Assembly: GCF_030944405.1 (NCBI RefSeq)
Contig: NZ_CP132339.1
Location: 2,356,001 to 2,420,000, forward strand
Reading direction: 5' to 3'
Length of the DNA: 64,000 nucleotides
Source: Janthinobacterium sp. J1-1
GTDB taxonomy: Bacteria; Pseudomonadota; Gammaproteobacteria; Burkholderiales; Burkholderiaceae_D
Position numbers and translations under genes: made by a program. A model generated the notes under the pieces. The model saw only the letters and a list, made by a program, of their open reading frames with translations, searched no databases and was not told the origin of the DNA. The first letter of the stretch is position 1, and each line of letters begins with the position of its first letter. Below are positions 42,297-43,541 of this stretch, piece after piece.

Positions 42297-42326
42297 CTTG
42301 TATTATTCCTCTCATGCGGTTGGTGG

Positions 42327-42520
42327 TGTTGCGAACAACATCGGCCGCTGTCAAAATTCTTGGTAGGCATATCAAGACCGGGTAACTGGATGCCGTATCC
42401 GCCCTTAGGCTCAAAGCCAGCGATGTAGATCTCGCACCAGTTACCCACCCTCCATGTCAAGATCGGACAGTATCTTTGGCACCGGCACGCCGGTAGCCCG
42501 CATTCACAAGGTAGATCGCA
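42327..42520 (+). ncRNA. Predicted bridge RNA of the IS110 element
   Basis: Three structures follow in order: a 5' hairpin TGTTG-CGAA-CAACA (42327-42340), a target-binding loop and a donor-binding loop. The target loop is closed by GGGTAACTGG (42380) and CCAGTTACCC (42437). Its 5' side TATCCGCCCT (42396-42405) matches target AATCCGACCT at 8 of 10 positions. Its 3' side TGTAG (42424-42428) pairs with target CTACG with one G-U pair. In the donor loop, ACAGTATCT (42467-42475) equals the right end plus core (43502-43510) exactly. ACAAG (42506-42510) is complementary to core plus left end, CTTGT (42297-42301). Confidence 0.8.
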
Positions 42521-42533
42521 AGAGGACCACAGC

Positions 42534-43493
42534 ATGTTTAATTTAGGAATCGACGTTGCCAAGGCCAAGCTGGACTGCGCACTGCGCCTGCCCAATGGCA
42601 AGCACCGTAACAAGGTAGTAGAGAACAATCACAAAGGATTTGCTGCACTGAGCGAATGGCTGCTCAAGCATGATGCCGGCAACCCGAGAGTATGTATGGA
42701 AGCGACTGGCACTTACTGGGAAGGGGTTGCCGAATATCTGGCCGGACTTGGCATGGTGGTCAGTGTCATCAATCCGGCACAGATGAAGGCCTTTGGCGCC
42801 TCGCGCATGGTACGCACCAAGACCGACAAGGTCGACGCGCAGTTGATTGCCGACTTTGCCCATGAGCGCCAACCGCAGCCGTGGACAGCGCCGTCGCCCG
42901 CCGCGCAGGCACTGCGCGCCTTGGTGCTGCGCCTCGAAGCGGTGCAAGCGATGCGGTTGCAGGAAACGAATCGGCTCGACGTCGCGCGAGAAGCGGTACG
43001 CCAGGGTATCGAGGATCACATTGCCTGGCTCGACAAAGAAATCAAGGAACTCATTCGCGCCATCAAGCGCCATATCGACGATGATCCGGATTTACGCGAT
43101 AAGCGCGAGCTGCTCGACAGCATCCCTGGTCTGGGTGAGCGCACGATACCAGTGTTGCTGTCGTACTATGCCGATACCGAGCGCTTCGACAACGCCAAGC
43201 AAGCCGTGGCGTTTGCGGGACTCGACCCGCGCCAGCACGAGTCAGGATCGAGCGTACGTGGCAAGCCACGCATGTCGAAGATTGGTCACAGTTTCCTGCG
43301 AAAGGCGCTGTACATGCCAGCCATGGTGACCGTATACAGGACACCATGGGGTCAGCGCTTTGGCCAGCGGCTCAGCGCTGCCGGCAAGGCACCGAAACTG
43401 ATCATCGGCGCCATGATGCGCAAGCTGGTGCACGTGGCATTCGGCGTGCTCAGGTCGGGAAAAATATTTGATCCAACCTTGCACAACGCTTGA
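42534..43493 (+). CDS. IS110-family transposase (DEDD recombinase)
   Basis: A 319-residue RNA-guided recombinase. The RuvC-like DEDD acids are visible: Asp7 in [11 protein letters not shown], Glu56 in CMEATGTYW, and Asp98 and Asp101 in [16 protein letters not shown] coiled-coil middle (residues 125-195) leads to the transposase_20 domain [15 protein letters not shown]. The catalytic serine is within [20 protein letters not shown] at about residues 237-240. AGAGG lies 8 bases before the ATG and could pair with CCTC at 42449, within the bridge RNA. No frame damage is seen, so the element looks active. Confidence 0.96.
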
Positions 43494-43541
43494 CGGGGAT
43501 AACAGTATCTACGATCTTGTCATGGCACGCAGGTCGCGTAG

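Follow-up and report, generated by a model that had tools for sequence, protein, structure and literature searches.

A predicted IS621-type bridge RNA in an IS110-family element inserted at a REP-like repeat of Janthinobacterium sp. J1-1

The window analysed here is a stretch of 64,000 nucleotides of the Janthinobacterium sp. J1-1 genome (NZ_CP132339.1, positions 2,356,001 to 2,420,000). It contains an insertion element within a REP-like repeat, which raises the question of whether the non-coding left end of this element specifies an RNA that selects the insertion site. Exactly such a layout has been known since 2024 for the bridge RNAs that IS110 elements encode (PMC11208160, PMC11208158). 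ISEc21 and related seekRNA elements are described as being of the IS110 type, with an upstream non-coding RNA that confers target specificity (PMC11187229). We consider it very probable that the element is an IS621-type member of the IS110 family and that its left end gives rise to a bridge RNA, which guides the recombinase to the REP-like repeat; expression of the RNA and activity of the element are predicted from sequence. A literature search found no paper on this element, for which ISfinder may already hold a name.

The complete element occupies 42299-43510, with CT cores at 42297-42298 and 43509-43510, and has the long left end (235 bases left of the ATG) and short right end (17 bases right of the stop) expected of an IS621-type element, with the following features:

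42288..42298, + strand: left half of the REP-like target, TAATCCGACCT (LT plus core), from flank comparison
42297..42298, + strand: left CT core dinucleotide at the junction of target and element, CT in 13/13 copies
42299..42303, + strand: right donor (RD) TGTAT at the element's left end, from copies and relatives
42534..43493, + strand: recombinase gene, IS110 family, 319 aa, with DEDD and Ser catalytic residues
43502..43510, + strand: left donor (LD) ACAGTATCT, which includes the right CT core, from copy comparison
43509..43512, + strand: right half of the target, CTAC, in 13/13 copies

The recombinase matches the Pfam families DEDD_Tnp_IS110 (PF01548, 98.8 bits) and Transposase_20 (PF02371, 86.9 bits). 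Among solved structures, residues 4-318 match IS621 (E 8.5e-103) and ISCro4 (PDB 9t56, E 2e-102, compared by its PDB sequence alone), and the protein is 52.5% identical over 318 aa to plasmid-borne IS621 copies. The catalytic residues described for IS621 are D11, E60, D102, D105 and S241; all five have counterparts here (D7, E56, D98, D101 and S237), in agreement with the original prediction that the transposase is intact, and the element could be a working recombinase. Its nearest full-length named relatives are from Janthinobacterium and are 89-90% identical. Assignment to the IS1111 group was rejected, as the RNA sits in the left end and the right end is short. A relative with 46% identity, on a Leptolyngbya boryana plasmid (AP018204.1, 388731-389678), is annotated as a "pilin gene inverting protein".

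The 6.95 Mb genome carries 13 full copies of the element and one 80-base match at 75% identity. Eleven of the copies encode the full 319 aa and two are frameshifted, and four copies at different loci, that in the window among them, encode an identical protein; such near-identical copies suggest recent movement.

All 13 copies are found in a single REP-like motif, TAATCCGAC/CT/AC, in which TAACCCGAC replaces TAATCCGAC in two cases, and all have one orientation relative to it. Reading across the left junction gives TAATCCGAC (11 copies) or TAACCCGAC (2), then CT, then TGTATTATT, and every copy has AC directly after its right end, ACAGTATCT. This motif forms the end of a palindromic repeat with many copies and is present in 33 of 40 genomes of the genus. 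In the J1-1 genome TAATCCGACCTAC is unoccupied 66 times; the more general pattern TAATCCGNCCTAC has 67 unoccupied sites, with N being A in 66, G in one and C in none, and the reversed control pattern has none. Within the window, an unoccupied site of the target type lies just downstream of the element (43538-43550), and an inverted pair of such sites, about 80 bases apart, lies at 51883-51977. One of the 40 genus genomes, G244, has 463 TAATCCGNCCTAC sites, approximately 2.8 times the next highest number (164, in G662). The sole Y1_Tnp (PF01797) match in the J1-1 genome (G000:C1:132180-132467, 31.4 bits) is possibly a REP-associated tyrosine transposase.

Empty sites were sought for three copies. 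For one of them (L009) the site is cleanly empty in the sister genome G072, CTAATCCGATCTACGTGACATTA against CTAATCCGACCTACGTGACATTA, and at this one site insertion is seen to have occurred without further site duplication. The window copy and L013 gave no clean site. In the orthologue of the window locus (L146 1470-1500, in G072) four bases (CTAC or ACCT) are missing at the core, which could be an old deletion or a trace of excision, and this locus therefore proves nothing concerning an empty site.

The order of loops put forward in the original prediction (5' stem-loop, target loop, donor loop, as in IS621-type bridge RNAs) is supported by a covariance model and by compensatory changes among relatives. 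The predicted RNA has the following parts:

42311..42351, + strand: 5' extension, exceeding the IS621 length by about 35 bases, z -2.75, with a tentative extra hairpin
42358..42377, + strand: 5' stem-loop of 8 bp with a GGCA loop; compensatory changes in 8/8 pairs, 78% of cells paired
42380..42446, + strand: target-binding loop, closed by a 10-bp stem plus UGC/GCA
42397..42405, + strand: left target guide ATCCGCCCU, 8/9 against the host target ATCCGACCT, mismatch at position 6
42425..42428, + strand: right target guide GUAG, pairing with CTAC
42429..42430, + strand: target-loop handshake guide AU, assigned by analogy with IS621, with predicted pairs to donor T7 and A6
42461..42517, + strand: donor-binding loop, outer stem GAUC/GAUC
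42467..42475, + strand: left donor guide ACAGUAUCU, a 9/9 match to the right end of the element
42502..42510, + strand: right donor guide AUUCACAAG (UC unpaired), seven pairs to CTTGTAT
42511..42512, + strand: donor-loop handshake guide GU, assigned by analogy with IS621, with predicted pairs to target C7 and A6

The perfect 10-bp stem of the target loop (42380-42389 with 42437-42446) and its inner GGCT/AGCC hairpin (42408-42411 with 42415-42418) are present as first described. We compared the left ends of 27 non-redundant elements out of 61 parsed, bearing in mind that these relatives are not independent events. Over 37 tested pairs, 89.7% of cells are paired and 26 pairs show compensatory changes; the observed values were reached by none of 500 shuffles on four measures and by 2/500 on a fifth. 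Controls in which the structure was slid along the alignment gave 27.3-43.3% pairing, a comparison biased towards the structure, as it was derived from the window, itself one of the 27 sequences. Pairs of the target loop have changes on both sides in 10 of 13 instances (94.6% of cells paired), and the outer donor stem is paired in 99.1% of cells with compensatory changes in two of its four pairs. One base pair of the target stem is broken in the genomic copy L017.

When the single sequence is folded (z -2.71, 3/200 shuffles as good), the target stem and the inner hairpin of the donor loop are obtained, whereas the outer donor stem emerges only through the relatives. RNAalifold, run unaided, recovers the target-loop stem with its inner hairpin and the outer donor-loop stem; the 5' stem-loop is missing from its consensus, and the inner donor hairpin takes another form there. 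A covariance-model search, proposed with the original prediction, was made with a model of 25 sequences from which the window and its nearest relative (group) were held out. The window scores 160.2 bits (42352-42520), the next match within it only 12.3 bits, and across the whole genome at E up to 1 the model finds exactly the 13 element copies. Rfam at gathering thresholds reports three tRNAs in the window and no bridge-RNA family. Two of the tRNA genes (54281-54354 and 54466-54539, + strand) are in tandem, about 110 bases apart, with the same letters in the Rfam alignment.

Nineteen elements have a 5' extension, and for 11 of them folding relative to shuffles gives z below -2. It does not in the other eight, and the extra hairpin is therefore not claimed as a shared structure; eight further elements have almost no 5' extension. 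Between the left end and the 5' stem-loop, L026 and L041 have an additional self-complementary stretch, judged by eye to be 60-80 bases (z -7.5 and -4.4), which resembles a repeat inserted in the bridge-RNA leader.

The donor guides can be compared directly with the ends of the element. The left donor guide was originally recognised as a copy of the right end plus CT core, and ACAGTATCT at 42467-42475 is indeed identical to 43502-43510. The right guide ACAAG is present at 42506-42510 as proposed, but forms part of a longer, split guide, ATTCACAAG, at 42502-42510. Relatives whose ends differ while the guides fail to co-vary were named in advance as evidence against this assignment, and the outcome mostly favours the guides. 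Over 48 rows covering all identities, position 3 of the left donor and its guide (LDG) is concordant in 47 (A/A 35, G/G 12, A/G 1). The right donor and its guide (RDG) are concordant in 46 of 49 rows (CTTGT/ACAAG in 38, CTCGT/ACGAG in 8) and discordant in three, one of which, L138, may be a wrong pick by the search pattern. Except in L107, element ends vary only in relatives below 50% identity. Six of these (L116, L117, L118, L119, L121 and L123, 45-46% identity) have a changed left donor, ACGGTATCT, and right donor, CTCGTAT, and the altered donor is matched by the guides ACGGUAUC and ACGAG. Within the first eight positions the LDG differs from the left donor in 11 of the 48 rows (L107, L029, L031, L033, L034, L035, L136, L114, L115, L130 and L137).

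For the target loop, the original prediction counted eight of ten bases of the 5' side as matching the REP target and paired the 3' side with the other target side; we count 8/9 at 42397-42405 and pair GUAG with CTAC. With equal base frequencies, a left end of 235 bases would be expected to contain an exact 9-mer match about 0.001 times and an 8-of-9 match about 0.02 times, and the target guide alone would therefore be weak evidence. The relatives decide the matter. In the comparison with their targets, which had also been proposed at the outset, 22 distinct guides agree with the flanking target at 132 of 154 non-core positions (137 if wobble pairs are included). Shuffling gave a mean of 71.7 (SD 6.0, maximum 99), and none of 100,000 reached 132. 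The match is 7/7 in 11 of the 22 guides and 6/7 in eight, with failure in three: L041 (2/7), L027 (3/7) and L044 (2/7). L111, outside the 22, fails too. When shifted one base later L041 matches at 8/9 with the core, and it is still scored as a failure. The targets concerned differ widely, for example TTGCACCCT, GCGACAACT, CCCCAACCT and ATCGGAGCT. The right target side is hardly tested because CTAC occurs in nearly all rows; in a Xenorhabdus pair with the guide GACAG, the right target of L044 (CTGTC) matches and that of L043 does not. We also weighed, by eye, whether the guide DNA might itself be targeted, and left this idea aside.

The one imperfection in the guide lies at position 6, where C faces A in the host motif, a non-wobble mismatch, in 13/13 copies. 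The same mismatch is present in the Janthinobacterium-like loci L023, L106, L024, L107, L108 and L134, which represent approximately four elements, since L023/L106 and L024/L107 look like duplicates from two sources. IS621 has a natural rG:dT mismatch at position 4, and its tolerance of mismatches is reported to be generally poor (PMC11208160). A perfect target for the guide, AATCCGCCCTAC, was not found in the J1-1 genome (G000). It occurs 32 times in one genome of the same family, G089 (reversed control 1), and at most four times in each of the other 293 of the 294 family genomes. Similarly, the host genome of L041 has 59 ATCCGNCCTAC sites, of which 42 are C-type, 10 G, 4 A and 3 T (reversed control 4); L041 is placed after CATCCGCCCT and its RNA reads AUCCGCCUU. 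In view of these C-type sites the guide looks tuned to C-type repeats. It is possible, although we think it unlikely, that the guide was tuned to the C-type repeat ATCCGCCCTAC elsewhere and that after transfer to the present host, where unoccupied sites are A-type in all but one instance, the element uses A-type repeats through tolerated mispairing. G089, however, lies outside the 28 of 294 family genomes with a recombinase match at E 1e-60, and the guide of L041 ends in UU rather than CU and so is not identical. Such a transfer is compatible with the bridge-RNA explanation, as it concerns only the history of the guide.

A more doubtful suggestion is that the mismatch is functional rather than a flaw, the lost guide pair being offset by handshake pairing. 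In IS621 the handshake positions are described as 81-82 in the target loop and 166-167 in the donor loop, and after strand exchange the donor-loop handshake base U167 pairs with target position 6 (PMC11208158). The predicted handshake pairs of the present element would all be perfect (A6-U and C7-G on the target, T7-A and A6-U on the donor), and a C-type target, perfect for the guide, would not give a perfect handshake. The G and U following ACAAG are invariant in 27/27 sequences, while target position 6 varies across 22 elements (A 11, C 6, T 3, G 2); covariation therefore gives this suggestion no support, and an invariant U opposite a variable position speaks against a strict handshake requirement.

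The fixed mismatch might alternatively be decay in a dead or dying family, with the RNA and the ends as relics in old copies. The two frameshifted genes and the broken pair in L017 would fit, but the full 319 aa are encoded by 11 of 13 copies, including four at different loci with an identical protein, and the stems of relatives stay paired through compensatory changes, so that we regard such decay as improbable. It is highly improbable that the guide-target match is incidental, with protein contacts of the recombinase reading the hairpin of the repeat and only a structural role for the left-end RNA: the host target is a palindromic repeat in 13/13 copies and the guide is imperfect to it, but relatives' guides follow very different targets, half of them perfectly at the seven non-core positions, and IS621 itself is reported to be guide-driven (PMC11208160), so that the sequences of the relatives already disfavour this strongly.

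If the element is a bridge-RNA system, its own joined ends could supply the promoter:

43490..43495, + strand: -35 box TTGACG, containing the recombinase stop TGA (43491-43493)
42301..42306, + strand: -10 box TATTAT, with a 17-base spacer from TTGACG across the RE-LE junction

Of 26 elements whose right end can be read, 22 have TTGAC at -35. The same arrangement of ends is reported to drive the RNA from the circular form of IS621 (PMC11208158), and we infer that the joined-end promoter transcribes the RNA here too. The element would excise as a circle, in which the joined ends (junction ACAGTATCTTGTAT) have the sequence of a sigma-70-like promoter and would transcribe the RNA. With the target loop (ATCCGCCCU plus GUAG) the recombinase would locate ATCCGACCTAC at the end of the repeat, and with the donor loop (ACAGUAUC plus the split AUUCACAAG) the element's own joined ends, ACAGTATCT/TGTAT. 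Strands would then be exchanged at the CT core, giving insertion in one orientation with no further site duplication. Among relatives the target guide is retuned to other targets, with donor and scaffold changing far less.

The closest known system is IS621 of E. coli (PDB 8wt6), for which the bridge RNA is proven. It shares the order of 5' stem-loop, target loop and donor loop, the left donor guide ACAGUAUC, the split right donor guide, whose split pairing has been described in IS621, the CT core, a target ending in CCTAC, the junction promoter and the handshake letters AU and GU. In IS621 a joint change of the LTG and the target is reported to move insertions. The elements differ in host target (ATCCGACCT here, ATCAGGCCT for IS621), in the mismatch (C opposite the A-type target at position 6 as against rG:dT at position 4) and in the longer 5' part of the left end, and the LDG includes the core U, unlike in IS621. 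ISEc21 differs in targeting a linear site in IS3-family transposase genes and is described as having a 74-nt seekRNA (PMC11187229). Insertion into REP sequences is shared with ISPsy8, ISPpu9, ISPpu10 and ISRm22, reported from Pseudomonas and Sinorhizobium in 2006 (PMC1525189); these are other elements in other hosts, and the report predates RNA guides. Every mark of an IS621-type element that was looked for in the sequence was found, and the element is therefore a new example of the already known IS621-type system.

The analysis confirms that bridge-RNA guides can be read, and tested, from raw sequence in an unstudied element. It also contributes a further lineage whose target guides go with varied targets on a donor and scaffold that are mostly conserved. 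In practical terms it provides another natural IS621-like recombinase. If the trade between mismatch and handshake is real, a bridge-RNA element could spread into the repeats of a new host ahead of any retuning of its guide. With a natural mismatch at a handshake position, and genomes rich in either A-type or C-type repeats, the way in which elements with programmable guides switch hosts is now testable, and this element is best used for studying how mismatches are tolerated, how the handshake pairs and how hosts are switched.
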